Below, piece by piece: positions 1,056 to 19,046 of a stretch of DNA of 64,000 nucleotides. The notes beneath the pieces were generated by a model. That model did no database searches and was not told where the DNA came from. It saw only the letters and a program-made list of their open reading frames with translations. Positions within the stretch are counted from its first letter, which is position 1; every line of letters starts with the position of its first letter. The position numbers and the translations under genes are program-made. The DNA comes from Streptomyces sp. 1-11 (GTDB lineage Bacteria; Actinomycetota; Actinomycetes; Streptomycetales; Streptomycetaceae), in the NCBI RefSeq assembly GCF_007176755.1, contig NZ_BJTV01000008.1, forward strand, positions 248,001 through 312,000. Reading direction: 5' to 3'.

Positions 1056-1202
1056 ATGCACACCTCGCAGCATCCCCCGGCCCCCGACCACCACAGCCCC
1101 GGACGCGCCGCCCGCACGCGCGCGCCCGGGGCCCGGCGCCGGCGCGGCAAACCCGCGCCGCGGCCGGCCCGGTCCGCAGGCAGGGGACGGAGGAGCAGCT
1201 GA
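1056..1202 (+). CDS. Small Arg/Pro-rich ORF coupled to asnO-type gene
   Basis: Forty-eight codons begin at ATG 1056, 12 nt after an AAGGAG at 1038-1043. The TGA at 1200-1202 shares its A with the ATG of the next gene, so translation of the two may be coupled. The peptide starts MHTSQHPPAPDHH and then becomes a run of Arg, Ala, Pro and Gly with no hydrophobic segment and no recognisable domain. It may be a coupling leader, a small basic protein or a chance open frame. The ribosome site and the exact stop-start overlap are what support it. Confidence 0.4.
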   Translation: MHTSQHPPAPDHHSPGRAARTRAPGARRRRGKPAPRPARSAGRGRRSS

Positions 1203-2986
1203 TGTGCGGAATCAGCGGAGAGATACGTCTCGACGGCGAGAAGCCGGACGTCGCGGCGGTGGAGCGGATGACCGACCGGCTCGCCGCCCGCGGCCCCGAC
1301 GGCCGCGGGGTGTGGTCCCAGGGAGCCGTCGCGCTGGGCCACCGCCGGCTGAAGATCATCGACCTCTCCGACAGCGGCGCCCAGCCCATGACGGACCCGC
1401 GCGCCAGGATCGCCGGCGTCTTCAACGGCTGCGTCTACAACTACCGCGAGCTGCGCGACGAACTGCGGGCGCTGGGCCACGATTTCTTCTCCGACTCCGA
1501 CACCGAGGTCGTGCTCAAGGCCTACCGGCAGTGGGGCGCCGACTGCGTCCGGCACTTCCACGGCATGTTCGCCTTCGCGATCGTCGAGCTGGACAGCGGA
1601 CGGGTCGTGCTGGGCCGCGACCGGCTCGGCATCAAACCGCTGTACCTGACGCAGACCGCCGACCGGCTGCGGTTCGCCTCCTCGCTGCCCGCCCTCCTCG
1701 CGGCCGGCGGCGTGGACACCTCCCTCGACCCGGTGGCCCTGCACCAGTACTTCAGCTGGCACGCCACCGTGACCGCACCGCACACCGTGCTCAACGGCGT
1801 ACGCAAGCTGCCCCCGGCCACGGTGCGCGTCATCGAGGCCGACGGGACCCAGCACGACCACCGTTACTGGCAGCCGTCCCACACCCGCCGGGCCGAGTTC
1901 GCCGCCCTCGGCGCCGAGGATTGGACGGACGCGGTGCTGGACGCGCTGCGCACCGCCGTACGCCGCCGGATGGTGGCCGACGTCCCGGTGGGCGTGCTGC
2001 TCTCGGGCGGGCTGGACTCCAGCCTCATCGTCGCCCTGCTCGCCGAGCAGGGACAGCGGGACCTCGCCACCTTCAGCGTCGGCTTCGAGGCCGAGGGCGG
2101 CGAGGAGGGCGACGAGTTCCACTACTCCGACCTGGTCGCACGCCACTTCGACACCAGCCACCGCCAGCTCCTGGTGCCGTCCGACCGCATCCCCGGGGCG
2201 CTGGAGTCGGCGGTGCTCGCGATGAGCGAGCCGATGATGAGCCACGACGTGGTCGCCTTCCACCTGCTGTCCGAGCAGGTCGCCAAGGAGGTCAAGGTCG
2301 TCCAGAGCGGCCAGGGCGCCGACGAGGTGTTCGCGGGCTACCACTGGTACCCGGCGATGTCCGGCGTGCCCCGGCACCAGGCAGCCGAGGCGTACATCGA
2401 CACCTACTTCGACCGCTCCCACACCGAGCTGGCCCGCATCCTCCAGCCCGGGCTGCTCGCCGGGCGGGACGTCTCCGCCGAGTTCGTGCGCGCCCACATG
2501 GCGGCCGAGGGCGCCGAGACCGCGCTGGACGCCGACCTCCGGCTGGACACCCAGGTGATGATGGTCGACGACCCCGTCAAGCGCGTGGACAACATGACGA
2601 TGGACTGGGGCCTGGAGGCCCGCGTCCCCTTCCTCGACCACGAACTGGTCGAACTGGCCGCCGCCTGCCCGCCCGAGCTGAAGCTCGCCGACGGCGGCAA
2701 GGGGATCCTCAAGGCCGCCGGACGCAGAGTCCTCCCGGCGGAGGTCGTCGACCGGCCCAAGGGCTACTTCCCGGTCCCGGCGATCAAGCACATGGCGGGT
2801 CCGGTGCTGCAACGGGTCCGCGAGGCCCTCACCGCCCCCGAGGCGAAGGAACGCGGCGTCTTCCGCCAGGAGTTCGTCGCGGAGCTGCTCGACGCACCCA
2901 ACGCGCACCGCACCAGGCGAGGAGCGAACACACTGTGGCAGGTAGCGCTGCTGGAGATATGGCTGCAGACGCACGGAATCCGCTGA
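1202..2986 (+). CDS. AsnO-like amidotransferase, N-acetylglutaminylglutamine amidotransferase family
   Basis: This 594-aa protein is a class II glutamine amidotransferase fused to an asparagine-synthetase domain. Cys2 (MCGISGE) is the Ntn nucleophile; RGPDG, HRRLKIIDLS and FNGCVYNYRELR mark the glutaminase domain (about 1-200). The ATP-pyrophosphatase loop LLSGGLDSS and SGQGADEVFAGYHWYP mark the synthetase domain. The full-length pattern resembles the AsnO family that amidates the osmolyte N-acetylglutaminylglutamine (NAGGN) rather than ordinary AsnB; this is my recollection of that family, not a search result. A GGAGGAG ribosome site precedes ATG 1202. The partner GNAT/ATP-grasp synthetase is not visible and, if present, would lie upstream of the window. 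Confidence 0.83.
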   Translation: MCGISGEIRLDGEKPDVAAVERMTDRLAARGPDGRGVWSQGAVALGHRRLKIIDLSDSGAQPMTDPRARIAGVFNGCVYNYRELRDELRALGHDFFSDSDTEVVLKAYRQWGADCVRHFHGMFAFAIVELDSGRVVLGRDRLGIKPLYLTQTADRLRFASSLPALLAAGGVDTSLDPVALHQYFSWHATVTAPHTVLNGVRKLPPATVRVIEADGTQHDHRYWQPSHTRRAEFAALGAEDWTDAVLDALRTAVRRRMVADVPVGVLLSGGLDSSLIVALLAEQGQRDLATFSVGFEAEGGEEGDEFHYSDLVARHFDTSHRQLLVPSDRIPGALESAVLAMSEPMMSHDVVAFHLLSEQVAKEVKVVQSGQGADEVFAGYHWYPAMSGVPRHQAAEAYIDTYFDRSHTELARILQPGLLAGRDVSAEFVRAHMAAEGAETALDADLRLDTQVMMVDDPVKRVDNMTMDWGLEARVPFLDHELVELAAACPPELKLADGGKGILKAAGRRVLPAEVVDRPKGYFPVPAIKHMAGPVLQRVREALTAPEAKERGVFRQEFVAELLDAPNAHRTRRGANTLWQVALLEIWLQTHGIR

Positions 2987-5271
2987 CCGCGAAGGACCCG
3001 GACGCACGGGAACCGGGGCCGCCGGGCGCCCGCGCCGCCCCGGCGACGGAACCAAACGGCGGTGAGGCGCGACCCGCGGGGACGCTCCCCGCGGATTCCG
3101 CGGACCCGGCCGCCCGTCCCGCTCCCGGCGCGGCCGGGGGAGTCACGGCGACGGCGGCCCGTCCGGCGCCCGAACCGGTGCTCCTCGCCGACGCCGCCGC
3201 CGCGCACGACGTACCGCAGCGGCTGACCGCGCACGGCTGCTGGTACCCCTCCATGGACCCCGGCGGCCGCAACGTCGCCTTCATCTGCGACCGGACCGGC
3301 GTGCCGCAACTGTGGACCGGGCCCGTCGACGGCGAGGAGGCGCGACTGCTGGACGCCGACCCCGACCCGGTCACCGAGGTCTCCTGGTCGCCGGACGGCC
3401 GCTGGATCGCGTACACCACGGCCCCCGGCGGCGGTGAGCTCACCCGCGTGCTGTGCGTACGCCCCGACGGCACCGGCCGCCGCCTGCTGGCCGGCGGCGA
3501 GCCCGGCGCCTCCGCCTACCTGGGCTGCTGGACGCACGACGGCTCGGCGATCGCGGTGACGCTCACCGAGCCCGCGCCCGCCGGCCGGATCAGGACCGGC
3601 GCCGACGGACAGGCGGCGGACCTCCCGGAGCCCGCCCACACCGGCGGCTGGGCGGGGCGGGACGGCCGCGCGGTACTGCTGGGCGGATCACCGCTCGGCG
3701 CCCCGCCGGACCGGGACACCACCGTGATCCAGGAGGCCGGCACGGCCCCGTCGCGGGAACCGGGCCCGAGGGTGCTGGCGGCTTATCTCGTGGACCCCGA
3801 GGGTGCGACCGCGCCGGTGCTGGTGGCGAGCGAGGCGGGGGCCCCGACCCTGCGCGTCTGCGGGCTGAGCCGGGACGGCAGACTCGCCCTGCTGCGCCGG
3901 GGCCCGCGAGGCCGGCGCGAGGCGCTCGTCGTCCGCCGCCGGGACCGCGCCGTCACCTGCACCGTACGGGTGGCCGACGGCGATCCGTGGATCGGCGGCT
4001 TCGCCCCCGACGGCCGCACCGTGTGGCTGCGCAGCGACAGCGGCCGTGAATTCGCGGCACTCCTCGCGGTGCGGCTGGGCCCCCGGGGCGGGCGGCTGGC
4101 GCAGTGGCCGGTCGCCGCCCGCCCGGACTGCGACCTGGAGCTGCTGAGCCTGCACCGGGACGGGCAGCACGCCGTGCTGTCCTGGAACGTGCGCGGAGTC
4201 AGCGAGCTGGAGATCACGAAGCTGCCCGCCGCCGTCCCCGAGACGGACGGCCCGACGGCCCTGCGCGCCGCGGCCGGGCCGCCGGCCGGCGCCGCCCGCG
4301 GCCTCCCGCTGCCCCACGAGGTGGTAACCCGGCTCGCGCCCGGCCCCGACCCGGACGGCCCGGTCGTGGCCCTGTCAGGCTCGCGGCGGCGGCCCGGCGT
4401 GTGGTGGCTGCCGCACGCCTCAGCCCTGCGCACCCCCTGGTCCTCGCGCGACGAGGACGCCGTGCCCGACGCCGGGCACGCGCCCGTACAGCCCTTTCCC
4501 GTCCGTCCCGTCGCCAGGGACGGGCTCGCCCTCGGCGGCTGGTACTACAGGGCGCCGGGCCGCTCCCCGGGCGAGGCGGCGCCCTGCGTCGTGCACCTGC
4601 ACGGCGGCCCCGAGGAACAGGAGCGCCCCGTGCTGCAGACGCTCTACCACGAACTCCTCGGCCGTGGACTGGACGTCTTCGCGCCCGACGTACGCGGCTC
4701 GTCGGGCTACGGCCGCTCGTTCGTGGACGCGGACCTCGGCACCAGGCGGTTCGCCGCGATCGAGGACGTCGCCGCCTGCGCGGCCCACGTCGTCGTCGCC
4801 GGCCTTGCCGACCCCCGGCGGCTCGCGGTGATGGGCCGCTCCTACGGCGGCTACCTGACGATGGCGTCCCTCGTCTGGCATCCGGAGCTGTTCCGCACCG
4901 GGGTGGCGGTCTGCGGGATGTCCGACCTCACCACGTTCTTCGCGGGCACCGAACCGTGGATCGCCGAGTCGGCCGCCCACAAGTACGGGCACCCCGAACA
5001 CGACCGTGAACTGCTGCGGTCGCTGTCCCCGATGAGCCGTGTCGACGCCCTGCGCGTACCGGTGCTCGCCGTGCACGGGGAGCACGACACCAACGTGCCG
5101 GTGGGCGAGTCACGGCAGTTCGTCCGGGCGGCGCGCGAACGCGGCCTGGAGGCCGAACTTCTGATGCTCCGTCAGGAGGGGCACGACTTCCGCCGTGCCG
5201 ACAACCGGCGTCTGTTCCGCAGGAGCGCCGCCGACTGGATCCAGCGGCACCTGACGAGCCGGCCCGCCTGA
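2959..5271 (+). CDS. S9 family (prolyl oligopeptidase-like) serine peptidase
   Basis: ATG 2959 overlaps the 3' end of the amidotransferase gene by 28 nt and gives 770 aa, longer than a usual S9 acyl-aminoacyl peptidase because of an Ala/Pro-rich N-terminus of about 65 residues. A beta-propeller of TolB-like strands (SWSPDGRWIAY, FAPDGRTVWL) spans roughly residues 75-480. The C-terminal alpha/beta hydrolase domain has the nucleophile in GRSYGG (Ser628), Asp in HGEHDTN and His in QEGHDF. No signal peptide is seen, so it is probably cytoplasmic. Known NAGGN cassettes use an M42 peptidase; here the S9 enzyme sits in that place and may trim or recycle the dipeptide. A start downstream of the Pro/Ala tail cannot be excluded. 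Confidence 0.83.
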   Translation: MAADARNPLTAKDPDAREPGPPGARAAPATEPNGGEARPAGTLPADSADPAARPAPGAAGGVTATAARPAPEPVLLADAAAAHDVPQRLTAHGCWYPSMDPGGRNVAFICDRTGVPQLWTGPVDGEEARLLDADPDPVTEVSWSPDGRWIAYTTAPGGGELTRVLCVRPDGTGRRLLAGGEPGASAYLGCWTHDGSAIAVTLTEPAPAGRIRTGADGQAADLPEPAHTGGWAGRDGRAVLLGGSPLGAPPDRDTTVIQEAGTAPSREPGPRVLAAYLVDPEGATAPVLVASEAGAPTLRVCGLSRDGRLALLRRGPRGRREALVVRRRDRAVTCTVRVADGDPWIGGFAPDGRTVWLRSDSGREFAALLAVRLGPRGGRLAQWPVAARPDCDLELLSLHRDGQHAVLSWNVRGVSELEITKLPAAVPETDGPTALRAAAGPPAGAARGLPLPHEVVTRLAPGPDPDGPVVALSGSRRRPGVWWLPHASALRTPWSSRDEDAVPDAGHAPVQPFPVRPVARDGLALGGWYYRAPGRSPGEAAPCVVHLHGGPEEQERPVLQTLYHELLGRGLDVFAPDVRGSSGYGRSFVDADLGTRRFAAIEDVAACAAHVVVAGLADPRRLAVMGRSYGGYLTMASLVWHPELFRTGVAVCGMSDLTTFFAGTEPWIAESAAHKYGHPEHDRELLRSLSPMSRVDALRVPVLAVHGEHDTNVPVGESRQFVRAARERGLEAELLMLRQEGHDFRRADNRRLFRRSAADWIQRHLTSRPA

Positions 5272-5426: not shown

Positions 5427-6773
5427 TCAGGGGCGGGGTGCGGCGCCCTCGTCGACGGGCAGGGCGACCGGCTCGTCGGCCGGCGGTACGGCAGGGGCCC
5501 CGGTGCCGGGTCCCTTGCTCCGGTGGCCGCTTCGCGAGCGTGTGCGGTGCAGCGCCAGCAGCAGCACCGGCATCAGCACGCAGGTGACCCCGGCGCTCTG
5601 CCAGAGGAGCGCGTCGAGCCGCCCGGCGGCCAGGTAGGCGCCCGCGGCGACCGCGGCCAGCGCGCACACACCGCGGTCCACGATGCTCTCCACCGACAGC
5701 AGCGTGGCCCGCGGGGCGTTCGCCGGGATGGCGTCGTTGACGAGCTTGCGCTGCACCGGGTACACGAACCCGGTGATCGCGGCGAACGCGCACAACAGCG
5801 CCACCACGGCCCAGGGCCCGCCGACGGCGGTGCCCGCCAGCGTCCCGGCGAGCGCCACGCTCAGCAGGGACACCCACACCACCGGCGGCACCCGGCGGCC
5901 CAGCCACTGGGGACGGGCCGAGGTCACCGCCTCCGCGACCGTCATCGCCGCGAGCACCCCGCCGTGCGCGCCCTCCCCGATGCCGTGCTCCAGGAGCACC
6001 GGCTGGAACAGGTTCACCTGGCAGATCCGGGACAGCGTGAAGACGGCCACGCCCTGCACCATGAGCAGGGCCAGCCACGGTGACGACCTGAGGGTGCGCA
6101 GCGCCGTCCGGGTGTCGCGCAGGAGACCGCCGTCGCGCCCCGGCCGGGCGCCCGGACGGACGGGGCCGCCCCGGGGCCCGGCCAGCCGTGGCAGGGCGAG
6201 GACGCAGCCGAGGGAACCGGCCGCGCTCGCGGCGCTGAGCACGTACGGGGCCTGCGGGGCCAGCGTCATCAGGGGCCCGACCAGCGGCCAGCAGACCACC
6301 TTGGCGGCGAGCCCGAGGGCCCGGGCCGTGCCCTCGGCGCGCAGATAGTGTGTTTGCGCCCCCTCGGCCCGCAGCCCGTCGTACAGGTAGGCGCTCGCCG
6401 CCCCGGAGGTCAGCGAGCGCCCGGCGGCGATGGCGAGGAAGTGCACCAGGAAGCCCGTGTACGACGGGGACAGGACCGGGGCCAGGTTGGCCGCCGTCAT
6501 CACCACCGCCCCGGCGCCCAGGCAGTTGCGGGCGCCGATGCGGTCGGCGATGGCCCCGGTCGGTATCTCGAAGAGGCAGAAGGCGATGTAGTAGATGCTC
6601 TGGATGCCGAAGATCTGGTCGTCGGACAGACCCGCGTCACGCTGGTATGCGTAGAAGACGGGCATCCACCACAGCAGGTTGAACAGCAGTTGGAAGCCGT
6701 TGTTCAGACGGATGACACGCCGCGCGGCCGGACTCGGGGCCGCCGCCGGAGCGGTGGGGCGCGGGGAGCGCAT
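5427..6773 (-). CDS. MFS transporter
   Basis: A 448-aa polytopic membrane protein beginning MRSPRP at 6773, 8 bp after the stop of the dikinase-like gene, so it is the last gene of a three-gene operon. Hydrophobic helices run throughout, for example GFQLLFNLLWWMPVFYAY, YYIAFCLFEIPTGAIADRIG (a DRxG loop typical of major facilitators) and ALLCAFAAITGFVYPVQ. The C-terminal ~40 residues are a Pro/Arg tail. MFS proteins beside ligase genes often export the product; export is inferred from context only. Substrate unknown. Confidence 0.8.
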   Translation of the reverse strand: MRSPRPTAPAAAPSPAARRVIRLNNGFQLLFNLLWWMPVFYAYQRDAGLSDDQIFGIQSIYYIAFCLFEIPTGAIADRIGARNCLGAGAVVMTAANLAPVLSPSYTGFLVHFLAIAAGRSLTSGAASAYLYDGLRAEGAQTHYLRAEGTARALGLAAKVVCWPLVGPLMTLAPQAPYVLSAASAAGSLGCVLALPRLAGPRGGPVRPGARPGRDGGLLRDTRTALRTLRSSPWLALLMVQGVAVFTLSRICQVNLFQPVLLEHGIGEGAHGGVLAAMTVAEAVTSARPQWLGRRVPPVVWVSLLSVALAGTLAGTAVGGPWAVVALLCAFAAITGFVYPVQRKLVNDAIPANAPRATLLSVESIVDRGVCALAAVAAGAYLAAGRLDALLWQSAGVTCVLMPVLLLALHRTRSRSGHRSKGPGTGAPAVPPADEPVALPVDEGAAPRP

Positions 6774-6781
6774 GCCGGGCC

Positions 6782-8794
6782 TCACCGCGAGTACGGGCGG
6801 ACCTGGACCAGGCGGAACGCCCCCTCGGCGGTCATGAGCCACTCGATGTCCAGTGCGGCGTCCGGGTCGTCCGCGCCGAAGTGCGACTGCAGCAGCCGCC
6901 CGGCCAGGGCCAGCCGGGCCAGCGCGGCGCGGGTCGCGGCCGGCAGGTCCTCGCCCGACGACCCGATGTCGACCGTACGGCCGCCGCCCTCGACGGTGTT
7001 GTAGAGGTACTGCTGGGGCAGGACCGTGCCGTCGACCACCCGCTCGGGCGATCCCGGCGCGCAGTTGAGGTACACGTTGCGGAAGTCCTCGCGACGGGTC
7101 GGATTGCAGGTCACCAGCACCCCTCCGAGACCGGCCGGCACGTACTCCTGGACGATGACGCCCATGTAGGTGTCGTCCAGCGGGATACCGGCCTGGTGCC
7201 GCAGGCGCACACTGCGCGGCGACACCAGCGACGCCCACACCTGACGCACGGCGTCCATGAGCTGGTCCGTGCCGCGCACCGTGGTGACCGAGTCGTAGAT
7301 GCCGGCGGCGGAGAAGCCCGGCAGGTCCTCGGCGTTGGAGGAGGAGCGCACCACCAGACGGCCCCCGCCGGCCGACAGTGGCGCCACCGACGCGAGGATC
7401 GCGCGTTCCACCTCGTCGGGCACCGGCGTGGCGCGCGTCAGCTGCTGGAGGCTGAGCGCGAGCGAGTCGACCACGTCGAACGCCTCCAGTTCGAGCGCCA
7501 TCTTCAGCTTGCCGATGCCCTGTTGCAGCGCGGGCGACGAGGTGAGGAAGAGATGGTGCAGCCGGAACGGCAGCGCCACGCCCTCCGGCGCGCGGACCGT
7601 CTGCGCCACCTGGGCCGCGGCCGCGGCACGCAGCCGCTCCCGCGACGCGCCGGGCTCACCGAGCCGGGCCGCGAGATGGCCGAGCAGATCGGGCCGCGGC
7701 GGACGCGGACGCGCGTAGAACGCGGTCAGGTCCGCGGTGCGGCTGTCCAGGACGTGGTGCAGCTCCCCGAGGTTCGCCGCCTTGGTGCCGTAGCTGTCGC
7801 GGTCCGCGCCGCGCAGCCGGTGCAGCGCGAGCACCGGAGCGTCCTCGAGCAGCGGCGCCTCAAGACGGATCCGCTGCTGGTGCCAGGCGGGTTTGGTCAA
7901 CGCCGGTGCGCGCGACAGCCGTTCCACGGTGACGGCGTCCTCCTGGGCGCTGTAGCGCACCCACGCGCCGTCCAGCGCCTCGCGCCGTACGACGTCGTCG
8001 AGGTCGCGGACGATCGCGTTGGGGATGCCCCAGCCCGAGGCGAGGACGTTGGTGTGGGAGAGCGGCGTGATGGGGGCCGTGTTGATGATCCCGGCGACGC
8101 GCGGCACGTCGTCGGGCGGGCAGGGCATCGCGACGATGTCCGACCAGCCCAGCTCCCGCGCCGCGCCCTCGTACTCCGCCAGGGTGCGGAAGTAGCGCAG
8201 CCGGCCCCGCGCCTCGCCCGGGTTGAGACAGGTGCGGGTCCGGTTGCCGAACAGCTCGTGGCTGAGGATCCGCGGCACCCGCGTCTCGCTGACGTGGGAC
8301 AGCTCGTGCTCCTGCCCGTGGTTGGCGGGCTTCAGCAGCAGCGGCAGGCGCCCGTCCACCCGCCCGCGCACATAGCCGTAGAACTCCTCCAGCAGGGCCC
8401 CGTGCATGGTGTCGGCCTCGGTCGTCTCCAGCACCAGGAAGGGCCGCTCGTCGCCGTCGGCCTCCTCGTCGGTGTGCAGGGACAGCACGCCGAGCAGGAA
8501 ACGGCGTTCGGGGTCCGTGTAGACGGAGGCGTTGAACGCGTCCAGGTCCGCGTCGAGTTCGTCCAGCGTCAGGCCGAGGATCCGGGTCGCGATGTAGTTG
8601 ACGTGGAAGGGGTGCACCCGGGTGTCGAGCAGGTGCCAGGTGTCCTCCGCGCGGTCCACCACGACCTTCAGGTAGGGGTGCCCGGCCAGCACCCCGGACA
8701 GGGCGCGGAACAGCGGCAGCGAGAGATTGGCGCCCACGACCGTCCGTTCGCCGGCCGCGTCCGGTGCACCCGTCGCGTCCAGGGTGAGGGTCAT
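6782..8794 (-). CDS. PEP/pyruvate-binding dikinase-like protein with permuted domain order
   Basis: The 670-aa protein begins MTLTLDATGA at 8794, its ATG overlapping the stop of the ATP-grasp gene by 4 nt. Residues 1-215 are an unrecognised N-terminal domain. A swivelling phosphohistidine domain follows with PITPLSHTNVLASGWGIPNA (His247). Residues ~340-670 are a PPDK_N-type ATP/PEP-binding domain, with VRSSSNAEDLPGFSAAGIYD and the C-terminal DIEWLM...LVQVRPYSR. Having the His domain before the nucleotide domain is the order of glucan water dikinases and the reverse of PEP synthase or PPDK. It probably transfers a phosphate through His247 to an unknown acceptor, perhaps to activate the partner ligase's substrate. 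Family sure, reaction unknown. Confidence 0.75.
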   Translation of the reverse strand: MTLTLDATGAPDAAGERTVVGANLSLPLFRALSGVLAGHPYLKVVVDRAEDTWHLLDTRVHPFHVNYIATRILGLTLDELDADLDAFNASVYTDPERRFLLGVLSLHTDEEADGDERPFLVLETTEADTMHGALLEEFYGYVRGRVDGRLPLLLKPANHGQEHELSHVSETRVPRILSHELFGNRTRTCLNPGEARGRLRYFRTLAEYEGAARELGWSDIVAMPCPPDDVPRVAGIINTAPITPLSHTNVLASGWGIPNAIVRDLDDVVRREALDGAWVRYSAQEDAVTVERLSRAPALTKPAWHQQRIRLEAPLLEDAPVLALHRLRGADRDSYGTKAANLGELHHVLDSRTADLTAFYARPRPPRPDLLGHLAARLGEPGASRERLRAAAAAQVAQTVRAPEGVALPFRLHHLFLTSSPALQQGIGKLKMALELEAFDVVDSLALSLQQLTRATPVPDEVERAILASVAPLSAGGGRLVVRSSSNAEDLPGFSAAGIYDSVTTVRGTDQLMDAVRQVWASLVSPRSVRLRHQAGIPLDDTYMGVIVQEYVPAGLGGVLVTCNPTRREDFRNVYLNCAPGSPERVVDGTVLPQQYLYNTVEGGGRTVDIGSSGEDLPAATRAALARLALAGRLLQSHFGADDPDAALDIEWLMTAEGAFRLVQVRPYSR

Positions 8795-10164
8795 GCCCGC
8801 ACCCCCTCGCCGATGTGCGTGGGCAGGATGCGCGGCATGGCGTCCACCAGCGCGGTGAGGTCCCGGACCACGGACTGCGGCCGGTCGGCCGACAGCAGGC
8901 ACAGCCCCGCCATGGTGTTGGCCCCGGCGGCCGGGTCGTAGACCGGCACCGGCGCGCCCTGCGGCAGCGAGTTCTCGTGCACCACGGACAGCGAACTGCC
9001 CGCGCCGATCGGGGCGCCGCGCAGCACGGCCGCCGGGTCCCACAGATGACGCCGGGCCCAGGGAGCGCCGTCGCCGTCCACCGCGAGGACCACCAGGGAA
9101 CCTGCCGCACCCTCGGCGTCCTCGCCGGTCAGCGCCCGCGCGGGCCACTCGGGCGAACGGCCCAGGAGCTGATCGGTGAACAGGCCCACCAGGTCGAGCC
9201 CGAAGACCTCCTCGATCTGGGGCACCGTCATCGCGCCGCCGAACCGCGCGGCCGTCTCGATGACCCACATGCGGCCGTCCGCGCCCAGCTTGATCTCCGT
9301 GTGCGTCCCGCAGTCCTCCAGCCCCAGGGCCTCGACGGCCTGCCGGGCCAGCTCCACGATCCGGTCCTGGGCGTCGGCGCCGAGCGCGGCCGGGGTGATG
9401 CCGGCCCGCTCGGTGAACGGCGCCACCGTCGGCATCCGCCCGCTCACGCACACCGGGCGGAAGACGCCGTCCACGACCACGCCCTCGACGCTGACGTAGT
9501 CACCCCAGCCCGAGCCGTCGAACCAGTCGCCGGCGCAGCCGCTGACGATCTCCTCGACGATGAAGTCCTCGCCGGCGCCCGCCACATGGAGCTCAGCGAA
9601 TCCCAGCCGCGCCGACTCCGTCATCACCGCCCGCGACCGCTGCCAGGCCGCCCGCGCCAGTTCGGGCGCCTCGATGATCTGGTGCGCCGTCGAACCGGCG
9701 CTCCAGGCCGCCTTCAACAGCAGGGGATAATTCAACTCGGCTGCGGCGCGGTCCAGTTCGGCGGCGCTGGTGACCGAGCGGAACCTGGGCTGGGGTATCC
9801 CGTGGCGCTCCCAGGCGCGGCGCATCAGCCGCTTGTCCCGGGCCAGCGCGGCGGCGGGCCCGGCACCGCGCAGCCCGAGCCGCCGGGACGCCTCGGCGAC
9901 CGCGACCACCGCGTACTCCGAGAACGTGACGACCGCGTCCGCGCCGACCTCGCGCGCCCGCGCGGCGATCAGCCCGACCAGATCGGAACCGGGCGGGTCG
10001 CCGGCCATGACGACCGAGTCGCACAGCCCGGCGGCGTCCGCCGCCACCGCGGCGGGCAGCTCGCTGAGTGCCAGCAGGTGCACCGCGGACCTCGCGGCCA
10101 CCCGCGTCAGGGCGTGCCCCACCGGGGGACCGCCCTTGGCATGCACGTACAGCACCCTGCTCAC
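8791..10164 (-). CDS. ATP-grasp carboxylate-amine ligase
   Basis: The GTG at 10164, 10 nt after a GAGGAG, gives 457 aa. The N-terminal ~100 residues form a Rossmann-like pre-ATP-grasp domain (SRVLYVHAKGGPPVG). The ATP-grasp fold has KRLMRRAWERHGIPQP, YPLLLKAAWSAGS, FIVEEIVSG and TEIKLGADGRMWVIETAARFGG, with the E/N-type metal ligands. This resembles the biotin-carboxylase-like L-amino-acid and dipeptide ligases, which make amide bonds through an acyl phosphate. First gene of the operon with the dikinase-like and MFS genes. Substrates cannot be read from sequence. Confidence 0.78.
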   Translation of the reverse strand: MSRVLYVHAKGGPPVGHALTRVAARSAVHLLALSELPAAVAADAAGLCDSVVMAGDPPGSDLVGLIAARAREVGADAVVTFSEYAVVAVAEASRRLGLRGAGPAAALARDKRLMRRAWERHGIPQPRFRSVTSAAELDRAAAELNYPLLLKAAWSAGSTAHQIIEAPELARAAWQRSRAVMTESARLGFAELHVAGAGEDFIVEEIVSGCAGDWFDGSGWGDYVSVEGVVVDGVFRPVCVSGRMPTVAPFTERAGITPAALGADAQDRIVELARQAVEALGLEDCGTHTEIKLGADGRMWVIETAARFGGAMTVPQIEEVFGLDLVGLFTDQLLGRSPEWPARALTGEDAEGAAGSLVVLAVDGDGAPWARRHLWDPAAVLRGAPIGAGSSLSVVHENSLPQGAPVPVYDPAAGANTMAGLCLLSADRPQSVVRDLTALVDAMPRILPTHIGEGVRA

Positions 10165-10501
10165 GAATACCCAACTCCTCTTGAATCGACGACGACCGAG
10201 GCGCGCACCGCGCCGTGTGCCGGCGGCGGGCCCGCGGCCGGGCCGGTACGACCCCGCCGTGCCACCGCCTCCTTCAAGCGAACCAGTCCCAACCCCCTTG
10301 CGAGGGGCCGCGATACGCGAACGGCTCAGGCAAATGCCCGACTGCCGGCGGTCTCGACGGTCCTGTGGGCGGCCGGTGGTGTGCTGCTGCCGCGGCCGCC
10401 CCCAGGCGCCGCGTCCGGCCGCCCCGCATGTCCGCCGCGCTACGGGATACGCATGAAGTGTTACGCAAAGTAACGTAGTAGACGGTTGAAGGAGTTGGGC
10501 C
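10165..10501. promoter_or_regulatory. Divergent intergenic region with GTTAC-N5-GTAAC operator-like site
   Basis: This 337-bp region separates the ATP-grasp operon (minus) from the PAS-LuxR gene (plus) and should carry both promoters. A perfect inverted repeat GTTACGCAAAGTAAC lies at 10460-10474, 28 bp before the regulator's start, and could bind the LuxR-type protein or another factor. An AAGGAG at 10489 is the regulator's ribosome site. The only other content noticed is the small WDWFA-encoding ORF on the minus strand. Confidence 0.5.
10274..10429 (-). CDS. Candidate 51-aa peptide ending GGWDWFA
   Basis: An ATG at 10429 opens 51 codons upstream of, and on the same strand as, the ATP-grasp gene, ending at 10274. 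The first half is low complexity (Ala run, Arg, Pro). The second half reads LPEPFAYRGPSQGGWDWFA and uses codons rare in this genome (TTG, CCT, CAA, GGT, GCT). The stop is immediately followed by an AAGGAGG (complement of 10268-10274). There is no convincing ribosome site before the ATG. It may be a precursor peptide, an attenuator leader (two Trp codons) or chance. Confidence 0.3.
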   Translation of the reverse strand: MRGGRTRRLGAAAAAAHHRPPTGPSRPPAVGHLPEPFAYRGPSQGGWDWFA

Positions 10502-11788
10502 GTGGACGAGGCCGATTTCAAGGCGCTGCTCGAAACCCTTCCGGTGTCCTGGTGGGAGGCCGACGGCGGACTGACAGTCGTCGACAGCGGGGGCGGCGCG
10601 TTCGACGACGAGCGCACCGCCCGGCGCTTCCTGGAAGCCCTCTGCGCCGACCGCGGCGGCACGCCGCTCCCCGCCGGCGCCGGCCCGTACCAGGCGTCCT
10701 TCGAGGGCCGCACCTTCGACGTGAACTGGCCGGCCCGCGACGACGGCCCGGACCGGCACGGCAGCAGGGGAGTGGCGGTCGAGGTGGGCGGCGGCGCGGA
10801 GGGGAACCCGTACGCCTCGTTCGCCGACCTCACCCCGGCCGCGGCCTTCGTGCGCGACGCCGCCGGCCGCTACCTGTGGGCCAACCACGCCTACGCCCAC
10901 CTGTACGGCACCACGCGCGACGCGCTGATCGGCCGTCACCTCGCCGACGTCGACGAGCCCGAGGACGTCGAACGGTTCCGCGCCCTGGACCGCGAGACCC
11001 TGTCCTGCGGCACCCCCGTCCGGCACACCCTCACCTACCGGCGCTCCGACGGCTCACCGGGGCACGCCGCCGGCTACCGCTTCCCGGTCCGCTGGGGCGC
11101 CGCGCGCTGCGTGGCCGGCATCTACGTCGACGTCACCGAGCACACCCGGGCGCTGGACCAACGGCACCGCGCCGAGGAGGACTTACGGGCGCTGCGCGAC
11201 CGCAGCGGCCTGCCCTGCGTACGGCTGTCGGCGGACGGGCTCGTCGAGGAGGCCGGCACCGCGGTCGCCGAACTCCTGCGCGTGCGCCTCTCCGACCTCA
11301 TCGGCCGGCCCGTGGACACCCTGCTGGCCGACACCCCCGAACGCACCGCCCTGCACCGCCTGTGGCAGGACCTCGTCGGCGGACGGCGCAGAAGCGCGCG
11401 CGCCGCCGCCGTACTCGTCGACGCGGACAGCCGGCAGCGCCGGGCCCTGGTCCAGTTGAGCGCGGTCTCCCGCGTCCCGGAGCGGGTGGCCGGCGTGTGG
11501 GCCGTCATGACGCACCTCGGCCTGCCGCACGAGGCGCGACCGCCCCTGACCGCGGCCCAGGTGCGCATACTCGCCCTGCTGGCCGCCGGGCGCAGCAACG
11601 CGGAGATCGCCGGAGCGCTGCACCTCTCCCGGCAGACCGTGGACTACCACCTGAGCCGGCTGCGCGACCTGCTGGACGCCGCCACCCGCCCGGCGCTGGT
11701 GGCCCGCGCCTATGTGCTCGGCATTCTCTCCCCGCAGGCCTGGCCGCCGAGGTCCGTCACGGCGGCGCATCCGCTGAGCCCGGTCTGA
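10502..11788 (+). CDS. PAS-domain LuxR-type transcriptional regulator
   Basis: GTG 10502 follows an AAGGAG with 8-nt spacing and gives 428 aa. Two or three PAS-like modules fill residues 1-330; the clearest is TPAAAFVRDAAGRYLWANHAYAHLYG...IGRHLADVDEPEDVERF. The C-terminal LuxR helix-turn-helix is LTAAQVRILALLAAGRSNAEIAGALHLSRQTVDYHLSRLRDLL. No receiver, membrane segment or kinase domain is seen, so it is a one-component sensor of a cytoplasmic ligand or redox state. It is divergent from the ATP-grasp operon, which is its most likely target. Confidence 0.8.
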   Translation: MDEADFKALLETLPVSWWEADGGLTVVDSGGGAFDDERTARRFLEALCADRGGTPLPAGAGPYQASFEGRTFDVNWPARDDGPDRHGSRGVAVEVGGGAEGNPYASFADLTPAAAFVRDAAGRYLWANHAYAHLYGTTRDALIGRHLADVDEPEDVERFRALDRETLSCGTPVRHTLTYRRSDGSPGHAAGYRFPVRWGAARCVAGIYVDVTEHTRALDQRHRAEEDLRALRDRSGLPCVRLSADGLVEEAGTAVAELLRVRLSDLIGRPVDTLLADTPERTALHRLWQDLVGGRRRSARAAAVLVDADSRQRRALVQLSAVSRVPERVAGVWAVMTHLGLPHEARPPLTAAQVRILALLAAGRSNAEIAGALHLSRQTVDYHLSRLRDLLDAATRPALVARAYVLGILSPQAWPPRSVTAAHPLSPV

Positions 11789-13116: not shown

Positions 13117-13920
13117 ATGCGCATCCGCCGAAGGAACAATGTGACGGTCACCGGCCCGAGCGACGCGACGACCCTGGTGCTCGCGCACGGGTTCGGCTGC
13201 GACCAGAACATGTGGCGCCTGGTCGCGCCGGCGCTGGCGCAGCGGTACCGGGTCGTGCTCTTCGACTACGTCGGCTCCGGCGGCTCCGACCTGTCCGCCT
13301 GGAGCGAGGCGCGGTACTCCTCGCTCGACGGCTACGCGCAGGACGTGGTCGACGTCTGCGAGGAGCTGGAACTCGACCGGGCGGTGTTCGTCGGGCACTC
13401 GGTCAGCGCCATGGTCGGGGTGCTGGCGGCCCGGGCGGCGCCGGAGCGGATCGGCGCCCTGGTGATGGTGGCGCCCTCACCCCGGTACATCGACGACGAG
13501 GGCTACCGCGGCGGCTTCGACGCCGAGGACATCGACGAGCTGCTGGCCTCCCTGGAGTCGAACTACCTGGGCTGGTCGTCCGCCATGGCCCCGGTGATCA
13601 TGGGCAACCCGGACCGGCCGGAGCTGGGGCAGGAGCTGACCAACAGTTTCTGCGCCACCGACCCCGACATCGCCCGCGTCTTCGCCCGCACCACGTTCCT
13701 CTCCGACAGCCGGGACGACCTCAAGACCGTGACCGTGCCCACCCTGGTCCTGGAGTGCGCCGAGGACGTCATCGCACCGCGCGAGGTCGGCGCCTACGTG
13801 CACGCGGCGATCCCCTCCTCACGCCTGGTCACCCTCGACGCCACCGGTCACTGCCCGCAGCTCAGCGCCCCCGAGGCCACGACCGCGGCGATCGTCGACT
13901 TCCTGGAGGCCCGGCCGTGA
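13117..13920 (+). CDS. RsbQ-like alpha/beta hydrolase, partner of the RsbP-type phosphatase
   Basis: The start is ATG 13117, 9 nt after GGAGG; ATG 13108 touches the ribosome site and is unlikely. The 267-aa protein is an RsbQ-type alpha/beta hydrolase: oxyanion LAHGFGCDQNMWR, nucleophile elbow VGHSVSAMVG (Ser95), Asp in ECAEDVIAP and His in TGHCPQLS. In Bacillus subtilis RsbQ is required, with RsbP, for energy-stress activation of SigB, apparently by supplying or sensing a small hydrophobic ligand. Here its stop overlaps the start of an RsbP-like PAS-PP2C gene, which strongly supports the assignment. Confidence 0.85.
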   Translation: MRIRRRNNVTVTGPSDATTLVLAHGFGCDQNMWRLVAPALAQRYRVVLFDYVGSGGSDLSAWSEARYSSLDGYAQDVVDVCEELELDRAVFVGHSVSAMVGVLAARAAPERIGALVMVAPSPRYIDDEGYRGGFDAEDIDELLASLESNYLGWSSAMAPVIMGNPDRPELGQELTNSFCATDPDIARVFARTTFLSDSRDDLKTVTVPTLVLECAEDVIAPREVGAYVHAAIPSSRLVTLDATGHCPQLSAPEATTAAIVDFLEARP

Positions 13921-15377
13921 TGTGCCGTACCGACAGCATGTCCGAGCCGCCCGAGGGCAACCAACGGCGGGGCGGGGATGACGTCGACCCGGCCTTCACC
14001 GCCCTGCTCGAGGACAGCGTCGAGGACCTCTACGAATCCGCGCCCTGCGGCTACCTCTCCACCCTGATGGACGGCACGGTCGCCAAGGTCAACGGCACTC
14101 TGCTGGACTGGCTGGGACTGCGGCGCGCGGACCTGGTGGGCCGCAGGCGCTTCGCCGACCTGCTGACCGTCGGCGGCAGGATGTACCACGAGACGCACTT
14201 CGCGCCGCTGCTGCGCATGCAGGGTGAACTGCGGGGCGTCGCCCTGGAGATGAAGACCGCCGAGGGGCGCCGGATCCCGGTGCTGGTCTCCTCCTCGGTC
14301 AAGCACGGCAGTGAGGGCGAGCCCCTGCTGATCCGTACCACCGTCGTCGACGCCTCCGACCGGCGCGCCTACGAGGAGGAGCTGCTGCGCCGCCGCCAGG
14401 ACGCCGACCGCGCCCGCCAGGAGGCCGAGCGGACGCGCGCCGAGGCCGAGGAGGCCCGGCGGCAGGCCGAGGAGGCCCGGCGGCAGGCCGAGGCCGACCG
14501 GGAGCGGCTGGCCGACGCGCTCGCCGTGCTGCAGAAGTCCCTGCTGCCCGACACCCTGCCGGCCGTCCCCGGTCTGGAGACGGCCGTGCACTACCACGCG
14601 GCCTCTCCCGACCAGCTCGGCGGCGACTTCTACGACCTGTTCGCCATCGGCGGCGGCCGCTGGGCCTTCTTCCTCGGGGACGTGTGCGGCAAGGGCCCGC
14701 AGGCCGCCGCGCTCACCTCGCTGACCCGCTACACCCTGCGCGCCGCCGCCCAGCACGACCCCGAGCCCCGTGCCGCGCTGACCGCCCTGAACACCGCGCT
14801 GCACGAGCGGTACACGGCCGGCGGCGACCCCCGCTACTGCACCTGCGTCTTCGGCATACTCGAACCCGGCGGCGACGGGCGCACGACCGTGCGGCTGGCC
14901 TCGGGGGGACACCCTCCGGCGCTCGTCATGCGGGCCGACGGCCGTGCCGAGTTCCTGCACACCCCGGGCGGACTGCTCGTCGGCGCCCTGCCCACCGCGC
15001 CCTTCACCTCCGCCACGACGACCCTGGCTCCCGGCGACACGCTCCTGCTGTACACCGACGGCCTCACCGAGGCCCGCACCGGTCCCACCCGTCACACCCT
15101 GTTCGGTGAGGACGGCCTGCTCGCCTTCGCCGCCGAGCACACGTCGGCGGCGCCCCGGACGCTGATCGCCGCGCTGGCCGAGCTGCTCCGGGGACTCGGC
15201 GACGGCCTCGACGACGACACGGCCCTCTTCGCCATCGGTGCCCCCGCCTCGGAAGCCCCATCCTCGGGAGCCCCATCCTCAGAAGTCCCTGCCTCCCAGA
15301 TCCCCGGCTCCCAGGCCCCCGCCTTCGAAGCCCGGCCCGGCGACCCGGCCCACCCGGCGACGAGGCACCCACGATGA
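13920..15377 (+). CDS. RsbP-like PAS-coiled-coil-PP2C phosphatase
   Basis: ATG 13920 shares its A with the TGA of the RsbQ-like gene (485 aa). A PAS domain (about 25-145) with ESAPCGYLSTLMDGTVAKVN is followed by a coiled coil rich in Glu/Arg/Ala (145-200), then a SpoIIE/PP2C domain with LGGDFYDLF, GDVCGKG, YTDGLTEAR and DDDTALFAI holding the metal-binding Asp residues. It would dephosphorylate a STAS antagonist; one is encoded directly downstream. The C-terminal ~45 residues are a Ser/Pro/Ala tail encoded by imperfect 15-bp repeats. Domain order matches RsbP. Confidence 0.87.
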   Translation: MCRTDSMSEPPEGNQRRGGDDVDPAFTALLEDSVEDLYESAPCGYLSTLMDGTVAKVNGTLLDWLGLRRADLVGRRRFADLLTVGGRMYHETHFAPLLRMQGELRGVALEMKTAEGRRIPVLVSSSVKHGSEGEPLLIRTTVVDASDRRAYEEELLRRRQDADRARQEAERTRAEAEEARRQAEEARRQAEADRERLADALAVLQKSLLPDTLPAVPGLETAVHYHAASPDQLGGDFYDLFAIGGGRWAFFLGDVCGKGPQAAALTSLTRYTLRAAAQHDPEPRAALTALNTALHERYTAGGDPRYCTCVFGILEPGGDGRTTVRLASGGHPPALVMRADGRAEFLHTPGGLLVGALPTAPFTSATTTLAPGDTLLLYTDGLTEARTGPTRHTLFGEDGLLAFAAEHTSAAPRTLIAALAELLRGLGDGLDDDTALFAIGAPASEAPSSGAPSSEVPASQIPGSQAPAFEARPGDPAHPATRHPR

Positions 15378-15724
15378 CACCACTGAACATCACGCACCGC
15401 GATGCCTCCGACGGCCCCGTCCTGCACGTGGCCGGCGAACTGGACCACGCCCAGGCCGCCCTCCTGCGGCGGGAGGTCGAATCCCTCGCCCTGCGGGCGG
15501 GCCAGTGCCTGGACCTGGACCTGTCGGACCTGGAGTTCTGCGACTCGACCGGCATCACCGTCCTGCTGGCGGCCCGCCAGTACGCCGGGGCGGCGGAGGC
15601 GGGCATCGTCCTGACCGGGGTTCAGCCGCACCTGCTGAGAGTCCTCACGATGGTCGGTCTCGACCGGGTCTTCACGCTCCGCCCGGCTCCGGACTCCCCG
15701 TCCGCCGGCACCGCGGCAGGCTGA
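15374..15724 (+). CDS. STAS anti-sigma factor antagonist (RsbV-like)
   Basis: The ATG overlaps the stop of the RsbP-like gene by 4 nt (116 aa). It is a single STAS domain: LHVAGELDHAQAALLRREV, then LDLSDLEFCDSTGITVLL, where Ser58 in the DSTG motif is the expected phosphoacceptor. Dephosphorylated antagonists bind the anti-sigma kinase and free the sigma factor. Third gene of the RsbQ-RsbP-RsbV-like operon. The cognate anti-sigma kinase is not adjacent. Confidence 0.88.
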   Translation: MTPLNITHRDASDGPVLHVAGELDHAQAALLRREVESLALRAGQCLDLDLSDLEFCDSTGITVLLAARQYAGAAEAGIVLTGVQPHLLRVLTMVGLDRVFTLRPAPDSPSAGTAAG

Positions 15725-17436: not shown

Positions 17437-18048
17437 ATGGTCATGGGCGAGACCGACATGAGTACGACGACCCGCGGCAGGCGGCGCCCGGCGCGGGAGC
17501 GGCTGCTGGAGGCGGCGGCCAGGCGCTTCTACGCCGACGGCGTGGCGGCGACCGGCATCGACACGATCACCGCCGAGGCAGGCGTCGCCAAGATGAGCCT
17601 GTACAACAACTTCTCCTCCAAGGCCGAGCTGGTCCGCGCCTACCTCGACGCCCGGCACGAGGAGTGGCTCGGCCTCTACCGGGCGCGGCTGGAGCCGTCC
17701 CGAGGGCCCAGGGACGGCGTCCTGGCGGTGTTCGACGCGTACGCGGACCACGCCGCGTACGCGTACGAACGGGGTTTCCGCGGCTGCGGCCTGCTCAACG
17801 CCGCCGCCGAGCTGCCCGCCGGGGACGAGGGCCGGGCCGTGGTCCGCGCCCACAAGGAGGAGGTCGAGCGCCTGATCGCCGGGCACCTGGACGAGCTGCT
17901 GCCCGGCCGCCCCGAAGAGGCCCGCGCGACGGCCGAGCACCTGTCCTTCCTCCTGGAGGGCGCGATGGCACGCGCCGGCCTCGAAGGGGACGGCGAGCGC
18001 CTGCGGCACGCCCGCGCGCTCGCGGCCGGCCTGCTGGACCGGTTGTGA
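17437..18048 (+). CDS. TetR family regulator
   Basis: Up to 203 aa from ATG 17437; ATG 17458 (MSTTTRGRRRP) is an alternative and neither has a strong ribosome site. The N-terminal helix-turn-helix reads RERLLEAAARRFYADGVAATGIDTITAEAGVAKMSLYNNFSSK (quoted here only as its overall span, residues ~19-62), with a C-terminal ligand domain containing FRGCGLLNAAAELP. Its stop overlaps the EamA transporter start by 4 nt, so it probably regulates that exporter. Confidence 0.85.
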   Translation: MVMGETDMSTTTRGRRRPARERLLEAAARRFYADGVAATGIDTITAEAGVAKMSLYNNFSSKAELVRAYLDARHEEWLGLYRARLEPSRGPRDGVLAVFDAYADHAAYAYERGFRGCGLLNAAAELPAGDEGRAVVRAHKEEVERLIAGHLDELLPGRPEEARATAEHLSFLLEGAMARAGLEGDGERLRHARALAAGLLDRL

Positions 18049-19046
18049 GCGGCGCCGGTCGCGCCCGGTCCGCGGGCACGGGAGCGCTGTGCGTGCTGGC
18101 GGCGTCCGTGCTGTGGGGCACGACGGGAACGGCCGCCACCTTCGCGCCGGAAGCCGGCCCACTGGCCATCGGCGCCGTCGCCATGGGGATCGGCGGGCTC
18201 CTGCAAGCCCTCGCCGCCGCGCGGCCGACCCTTCGCAGCGTGCCGCGTCTGCGGGCGCAGCGCGGGACGGTGCTGCTCGGCGCCGTCTCGGTGGCCGTCT
18301 ACCCGCTGGCCTTCTACAGCTCCATGCGCCTGGCCGGGGTCGCCGTGGGCACCGTGGTGTCGATCGGCACCGCGCCACTGGCCTCGGCGGTGATCGAGCG
18401 GGTCGCGGACCGGCGCCGCCTCACACGCCGCTGGACGCTCGCCGCCCTCCTCGGCCTGCTCGGCACGGCCTCGCTGTGCGTCGCGGAGACGTCCCACGCC
18501 TCCGACGGCGCCGGGCACCGGTCCGTGGCCGGCATGCTGCTCGGAATCGGCCTGGGACTCGTGGCGGCGGCCACGTACGCCCTGTACTCGTGGGCCGCGC
18601 ATCGGCTGATCACCCGTGGGACACCCCCACGCGCGGCGACGGGCGCGGTGTTCGGACTCGGCGGGCTGCTCCTGGTCCCCGTCCTGCTGGCGACCGGAGC
18701 CCCGCTCGTGCACTCCTGGACCGGGGCGGCCGTCGGCCTCTACATGGCGCTGGTCCCGATGTTCACCGGCTACGTCTTGTTCGGCTGGGGGCTCGCGCAC
18801 GTGCCGGCGAGCACGGCCACCACTCTGTCCCTGCTCGAACCGGCGGTCGCGGCCGTCCTCGCGGTCCTCGTCGTCGGCGAACGGCTCCCCGCGCTCGGCT
18901 GGACCGGCATCGCGCTCGTCATCCTGTGCCTCGCCGTCCTCACCGCACCGACACGCGCCGGCGCCGGGAAGCGGGACGCGGTGAGCCGCCCGGAGGAGGC
19001 ACCCGCGCCGGCGCCGGCGCACACGGCCGGGAGCGGGCCCGGCTGA
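18045..19046 (+). CDS. EamA/DMT superfamily transporter
   Basis: GTG 18045 overlaps the TetR stop (GTGA). The 333-aa protein has ten predicted helices in two EamA halves, including ALCVLAASVLWGTTGTAATF at the start and YVLFGWGLAHVPASTATTLS with the conserved LEP (LSLLEPAVAAVLAV) near the end. DMT permeases usually export amino acids, nucleosides or drugs. Regulation by the co-transcribed TetR is likely. A 35-residue Pro/Ala tail ends the protein. Confidence 0.85.
   Translation: MSGAGRARSAGTGALCVLAASVLWGTTGTAATFAPEAGPLAIGAVAMGIGGLLQALAAARPTLRSVPRLRAQRGTVLLGAVSVAVYPLAFYSSMRLAGVAVGTVVSIGTAPLASAVIERVADRRRLTRRWTLAALLGLLGTASLCVAETSHASDGAGHRSVAGMLLGIGLGLVAAATYALYSWAAHRLITRGTPPRAATGAVFGLGGLLLVPVLLATGAPLVHSWTGAAVGLYMALVPMFTGYVLFGWGLAHVPASTATTLSLLEPAVAAVLAVLVVGERLPALGWTGIALVILCLAVLTAPTRAGAGKRDAVSRPEEAPAPAPAHTAGSGPG

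Follow-up and report, generated by a model that had tools for sequence, protein, structure and literature searches.

The window analysed here is a stretch of 64,000 nucleotides of high-GC DNA (73% G+C) from Streptomyces sp. 1-11, and our subject within it is a gene cassette encoding an ATP-grasp ligase, a phosphohistidine dikinase-like phosphotransferase (hereafter the dikinase) and a major facilitator superfamily (MFS) exporter, together with a divergent regulator gene of the PAS-LuxR type and a palindromic site (Table 1). Recomputing the open reading frames (ORFs) and their overlap confirmed the positions and the translational coupling that an earlier note on this DNA had given for the first two genes, which have an ATGA in common at 8791-8794. 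The MFS ORF likewise starts, as described there, 8 bp past the dikinase stop codon. Third codon positions are about 0.94 G+C in all three ORFs, as in real Streptomyces genes, and the three form one operon. The trio treated as a unit in the earlier note is therefore a real and conserved operon, but the fourth gene, encoding the PAS-LuxR protein, and the palindrome had been overlooked. The closest named strain is Streptomyces sp. DHE7-1, whose dikinase shows 95% identity.

Table 1. Genes, protein domains and the operator-like site of the cassette, in window coordinates.
Feature	Positions	Strand	Remarks
MFS exporter	5427-6773	-	448 aa; PF07690 E 4.6e-15
His-first dikinase-like phosphotransferase	6782-8794	-	670 aa; ATGA overlap with ligase
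PPDK_N ATP-grasp (nucleotide) domain of dikinase, residues 397-668	6791-7606	-	PF01326 E 4e-39
His (swivel, PEP-utilizer-like) domain of dikinase, residues ~187-295	7910-8236	-	His247 at 8054-8056
N-terminal domain of dikinase, residues 17-186	8237-8746	-	proposed acceptor (dipeptide) binding domain
ATP-grasp ligase, BacD-like	8791-10164	-	457 aa; GTG start
Palindromic operator-like site	10322-10345	no strand	core TCAGGCA-AA-TGCCCGA at 10326-10341
PAS-LuxR transcriptional regulator, divergent	10502-11788	+	428 aa; PAS_4 E 1.6e-17; GerE/LuxR helix-turn-helix (HTH) E 1.7e-10

Absence of the trio outside this strain, set beforehand in the earlier note as a refuting result, can be dismissed, since the unit is conserved at 118 distinct Streptomycetaceae loci. 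In the genome-neighbourhood search proposed there, a ligase gene adjoins or is fused to a His-first dikinase gene at 117 of these loci; an MFS gene lies beside the dikinase gene at 105, a PAS-LuxR gene is present at 100 and a glycosyltransferase gene at 11. A dikinase of full length is encoded in 45 of the 298 Streptomycetaceae genomes and in 45 of the 393 Streptomyces genomes, the cassette being present in about one in nine Streptomyces species. The dikinase was also found on two Streptomyces plasmids and at sites near chromosome ends, and none was detected at E<=1e-45 among 395 genomes from other genera of the class. Among the 393 Streptomyces genomes, a ligase at E<=1e-50 accompanies the dikinase in 44 of the 45 carriers, and in the remaining one (G1292) a fragment of a ligase, 100 aa long, adjoins a dikinase.

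The flanking genes vary between loci. Independent genomes repeat both the gene order of the cassette and the 4-bp ATGA overlap, which 98 of the 107 pairs of ligase and dikinase retain, and thus the arrangement is far beyond chance. At one locus (L065:7600-10956) ligase and dikinase are fused into a single protein of 1118 aa, which is direct evidence that they act together. Gene order has changed elsewhere: L176 has the order dikinase-MFS-ligase between transposase-like genes, and 11 loci (L066-L076) that we call subtype B, as opposed to subtype A of the window, have the order dikinase-ligase-glycosyltransferase, with the glycosyltransferase in the exporter's stead. These rearrangements, together with the fusion, point to joint selection.

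The dikinase shows the traits of the phosphohistidine dikinases, a group that comprises phosphoenolpyruvate (PEP) synthase, pyruvate phosphate dikinase (PPDK) and rifampin phosphotransferase (Rph), namely a PPDK_N domain with intact ATP residues and a swivel-domain histidine. The PF01326 match (135 bits against a cut-off of 27) spans residues 397-668 only and His247, which sits in TPLSHTNVLASGWGIPNA, lies ahead of it, so that the order of His domain before ATP domain holds. In an alignment of 33 relatives His247 is invariant, as are the swivel-domain motif TPLSHxNVxAxGWxIPNA and the residues K338, R483, S502, E651, Q664 and R666. The motif of K338, YGTKAANLGEL, stands about 45-60 residues upstream of the PPDK_N domain. 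K338, R483 and S502 align with Lys22, Arg117 and Thr136, the ATP residues of Rph (PMC4844700), with Ser replacing Thr. PF00391 gave weak matches in relatives (best E 0.011) and none in the window dikinase itself. No Pfam domain for a C-terminal PEP/pyruvate-binding TIM barrel was found, and the protein ends after PPDK_N.

In the full-length model (predicted local distance difference test, pLDDT, 82) the ATP domain resembles those of rifampin phosphotransferase (5hv1, E 3.7e-19), HpeI (9goj) and PEP synthase. NCBIfam scores follow the same line, with 104-113 bits for Rph and PEP synthase and 62-78 bits for the prodigiosin ligases PigC and RedH. Membership of the rifampin phosphotransferase family was rejected, as the match reaches 104.5 bits against a cut-off of 999 and is limited to the ATP domain. 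Membership of the glucan/phosphoglucan water dikinases was also rejected: the domain order agrees, but no starch-binding module was found by Pfam or PDB fold. The earlier note had called the protein glucan-water-dikinase-like, which is right for the order of its domains, but in sequence and fold the closest relatives of its ATP domain are rifampin phosphotransferase, PEP synthase and HpeI.

The same note had set apart an unrecognised N-terminal domain of about 215 residues. Indeed, this region has no relative in Pfam or PDB, but its boundary is better placed at about 17-186, since the strands that follow are part of the His (swivel) domain. Structure prediction, suggested earlier for the whole region and run here on residues 17-186, returned a confident AlphaFold2 fold (pLDDT 92.3; predicted template modelling score 0.88), for which a PDB fold search gave nothing at E<=0.001. 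A Pfam search over 33 members found no family and no carbohydrate-binding domain, and 39 residues of the domain are invariant. Rph and PPDK employ a separate acceptor domain; by analogy, residues 17-186 are likely the acceptor domain of the dikinase. Searches with this domain outside Streptomycetaceae gave nothing further in 72,556 plasmids, and remote proteins of the same architecture were seen in three other Actinomycetota genomes only. These His-first dikinase-like proteins (L173:8727-10898, L174:7719-10379 and L175:1-1600) belong to other Actinomycetota families and have unrelated neighbours, and that of L174 has a lipoprotein-like N-terminus.

The closest characterised relative of the ligase is the alanine-anticapsin ligase BacD, its best match both in NCBIfam (183 bits, cut-off 850) and in PDB (3wo1, E 6.8e-52). 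The likeness extends over the ATP-grasp core, at about 180 bits, with an identical catalytic motif: E290 and E303, which bind metal and ATP, and R307 are kept in 116 of 117 ligases, the remaining one having a gap. However, the score is far under the equivalog cut-off, so that the window ligase is a relative of BacD and not BacD itself; anticapsin genes are absent and the substrate pocket differs. Trp332 is a key residue of the substrate-binding pocket of BacD (PMC6920838). At its position the window ligase has Ala311, and every one of the 116 comparable ligases carries Ala, Val or Leu there. This fits a larger first amino acid, such as Phe or Leu, and the first residue of the dipeptide is probably bulky.

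Four cousins of the ligase, 45-48% identical, occur without the dikinase in other small-peptide-like clusters, where the neighbouring genes are cysteine-synthase-like, TauD-like oxygenase or asparagine-synthase-like. Two of these loci (L196 and L197) combine the cousin with two more ATP-grasp and two cysteine-synthase-like genes, a TauD-like oxygenase, an HpcH-like aldolase, a methyltransferase-like gene and an MFS gene, and are apparently a different peptide natural-product cluster. The other two (L198:7802-13225 and L199:6325-11662) carry a second operon of this sort, with genes for an asparagine-synthase-like protein, the ligase cousin, an MFS protein and a fourth product.

The palindrome lies at the midpoint between the start codons of the PAS-LuxR and ligase genes. 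Its 9-mer, TTTGCCTGA/TCAGGCAAA, is present in 86 of the 95 segments between divergent PAS-LuxR and ligase genes, and in the whole 1.88 Mb of those loci it occurs 86 times, with about 3 expected from base composition. When 82 sites of 24 bp were aligned on the 9-mer, the GGC positions of the second half-site were kept in every one (82/82). The 24-bp consensus is CGACTCAGGCATTTGCCTGAGTCG (loci L039-L158), and the copy in S. rishiriensis is a perfect palindrome. With at most 1 mismatch allowed, the pattern occurs once in the window genome (7.85 Mb), at 10326-10341, and a scan of loci of other types, lacking the divergent arrangement, found no such palindrome. An inverted repeat near the PAS-LuxR start, GTTAC-N5-GTAAC, was discarded as operator, being confined to the window; the conserved TCAGGCA-N2-TGCCTGA emerged instead.

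PAS-LuxR regulators of the PimM type bind, according to PMC9774167, the 16-bp palindrome CTVGGGAWWTCCCBAG. The protein of the window has a PAS and a LuxR HTH domain and, at 428 aa, is longer than the regulators of that type listed there; the palindrome CTCAGGCATTTGCCTGAG is likewise symmetric around WW, but its core is another one. The conserved site is a candidate pathway-specific operator for the adjoining PAS-LuxR protein.

We propose, with a probability of about 0.6, that these four genes amount to a self-contained natural-product cassette making an exported N-phosphoryl dipeptide. The ligase would couple two free amino acids to a dipeptide at the expense of ATP, and the dikinase would move a phosphate from ATP (yielding AMP and Pi) onto His247. 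The swivel domain would then bring this phosphate over to the N-terminal domain, and there the dipeptide would receive it, most likely on the free alpha-amino group, giving a phosphoramidate. The MFS protein would export this product, and the PAS-LuxR protein would turn the operon on through the palindrome. The compound may act as a transition-state mimic for thermolysin-like metalloproteases, like FMPI (phospho-Phe-Arg). In subtype B the glycosyltransferase would lead to sugar-capped forms resembling phosphoramidon or talopeptin, and the operons at L066-L076 are candidates for such sugar-capped phosphoramidates. While gene content, operon, conservation, intact catalytic motifs and operator pattern are observed, the making of a dipeptide, the outward direction of transport and the binding of the regulator to the palindrome are inferred. 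A product that is a phosphorylated small peptide of some kind we regard as more probable than the proposal in full, and its inhibition of metalloproteases as less so; the placing of the phosphate on nitrogen and the protease target are the least secure steps. The core idea of the earlier note, an exported phosphorylated amino-acid conjugate, fits all results, and its interpretation as a whole is partly borne out.

The closest characterised ATP domain being that of rifampin phosphotransferase, the dikinase might instead serve self-protection or activation, O-phosphorylating a dipeptide antibiotic made by the ligase and so holding it inactive inside the producer up to its export, in the way that Rph inactivates rifampin; exporter genes often go with self-protection. 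Nevertheless, we consider this unlikely. The cassette has no conserved extracellular phosphatase and no tailoring gene to supply a hydroxyl group, the constant pairing with the ligase, even as a fusion, looks biosynthetic, and subtype B attaches a sugar instead of taking a phosphate off. Rph itself has the ATP-grasp domain, the phosphohistidine swivel mechanism and the same ATP-binding residues, but its domains run ATP-rifampin-His, whereas those of the dikinase run acceptor-His-ATP with no rifampin-binding domain. The two-component phenol kinase HpeHI, which converts ATP to AMP (PMC12167813), is similar in the ATP-grasp domain of HpeI and in the swivel mechanism, but it acts on phenolic acceptors and has two separate subunits and another acceptor domain.

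More doubtful still is a role for the dikinase as a second condensing enzyme, which, in the manner of PigC and RedH, would phospho-activate a carboxyl or carbonyl group and add a further amine, leading to a larger, phosphorus-free amide. Those two ligases do have a PPDK_N-type domain and appear among the NCBIfam matches, but they score below Rph and PEP synthase, their domain order differs and no conserved gene would supply the third substrate. It is very improbable that the dikinase is of the glucan or polysaccharide type, with the ligase decorating a cell-surface polymer, as it shares with glucan water dikinase the order of His and ATP domains but has its best matches elsewhere, carries no Pfam carbohydrate-binding module, has an N-terminal domain with no PDB fold match and lies among no conserved glycan genes.

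An N-acetylglutaminylglutamine amidotransferase gene (TIGR03104, 961 bits, cut-off 570) is accompanied by genes for an S9 peptidase and a GCS2-like protein (window 1202-2986 (+) and 2959-5271 (+); L007 ~17804-18952 (+)). They were rejected as pathway parts, since homologs stand beside the cassette only in the near-identical DHE7-1 and the genes converge on the operon from the opposite strand; an N-acetylglutaminylglutamine synthetase (TIGR03103) was not found over cut-off anywhere in the genome. On the other side, at 13141-15724 (+), a possible RsbQ-like hydrolase, an RsbP-like PAS/PP2C phosphatase and a STAS-domain protein are encoded in a row, judging from sequence.

N-phosphorylation of small molecules is, to our knowledge, rare in biology, and very few enzymes that form P-N bonds are known. 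If the dipeptide proposal is correct, 11-15% of the sampled Streptomycetaceae genomes would have a cassette for phosphoramidate protease inhibitors, acid-labile compounds that are prone to loss during routine extraction. The cassette would provide a gene handle for FMPI-type compounds, its kinase would have an undescribed acceptor domain, and the reading of the ligase pocket would be a route to mine new metalloprotease inhibitors. Moreover, the candidate regulator-operator pair would offer a clean means to switch the cluster on.

Phosphoramidon and talopeptin, from S. tanashiensis and S. mozunensis, are described in PMC6429109 as deoxysugar-phosphoramidate metalloprotease inhibitors, with a deoxysugar on the phosphate and the dipeptide attached via a P-N bond (deoxysugar-phospho-Leu-Trp). 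As its title states, the study of Baulig et al. 2019 (Chem. Sci. 10:4486; cited in PMC9961378) reconstructed the phosphoramidon pathway with a kinase that forms the N-P bond. The chemistry expected of our cassette is the same, a dipeptide made by a ligase and then N-phosphorylated by a kinase, and subtype B combines a ligase and a phosphohistidine kinase with a glycosyltransferase whose closest match is the activator-dependent subfamily that transfers deoxysugars (202 bits, cut-off 440). The earlier note had known of no pathway defined by the trio; the phosphoramidon/talopeptin (tal) pathway, however, does resemble it, with subtype B having the corresponding parts. In the abstract of the reconstruction study TalE is reportedly the phosphoramidate-forming kinase and TalC the glycosyltransferase. 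In contrast, no such glycosyltransferase is encoded in the window or at any locus of subtype A, and the window has the MFS exporter, the PAS-LuxR gene and the operator-like site instead. Since a glycosyltransferase is needed for phosphoramidon and talopeptin but not for FMPI, we do not file the window cassette as a phosphoramidon cluster.

FMPI, phosphophenylalanylarginine from S. rishiriensis, is the third Streptomyces product in which a P-N bond ties a dipeptide to a phosphate, and likewise inhibits metalloproteases (PMC6429109). It is a sugar-free N-phosphoryl dipeptide, the product class predicted for the cassette, and subtype A has no sugar step and an exporter, as FMPI would require. We know of no gene cluster assigned to FMPI. 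In the genome of S. rishiriensis NBRC 13407 the sugar-free cassette is present together with its perfect 24-bp palindrome (L109), and the window dikinase is 76% identical to that of this strain.

Several points weigh against the proposal. FMPI comes from strain NK-122 and the genome from another strain, NBRC 13407; the chance that any Streptomyces taken at random carries the cassette is 11-15%, so that the match in S. rishiriensis is worth a factor of about 7-9 and is not proof. The likeness to the tal pathway is one of gene parts and expected chemistry. All loci of subtype B belong to another genus of the Streptomycetaceae (g14) and none to the sampled Streptomyces, yet the producers of phosphoramidon and talopeptin carry the name Streptomyces. 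The predicted structure of the acceptor domain yields no clue to the substrate, and the phosphate may sit on oxygen rather than nitrogen.

Taken with these points, the best reading is that the cassette would be a sugar-free variant of the phosphoramidon/talopeptin-type pathway. Tentatively, and with somewhat more doubt than favour, we suggest a stronger version: that this cassette, found in about one in nine Streptomyces species and having its own PAS-LuxR/operator switch, a dipeptide domain of new fold and ligase pocket variants that would predict unknown phosphoramidates, may be the genetic basis of the FMPI-type inhibitors.

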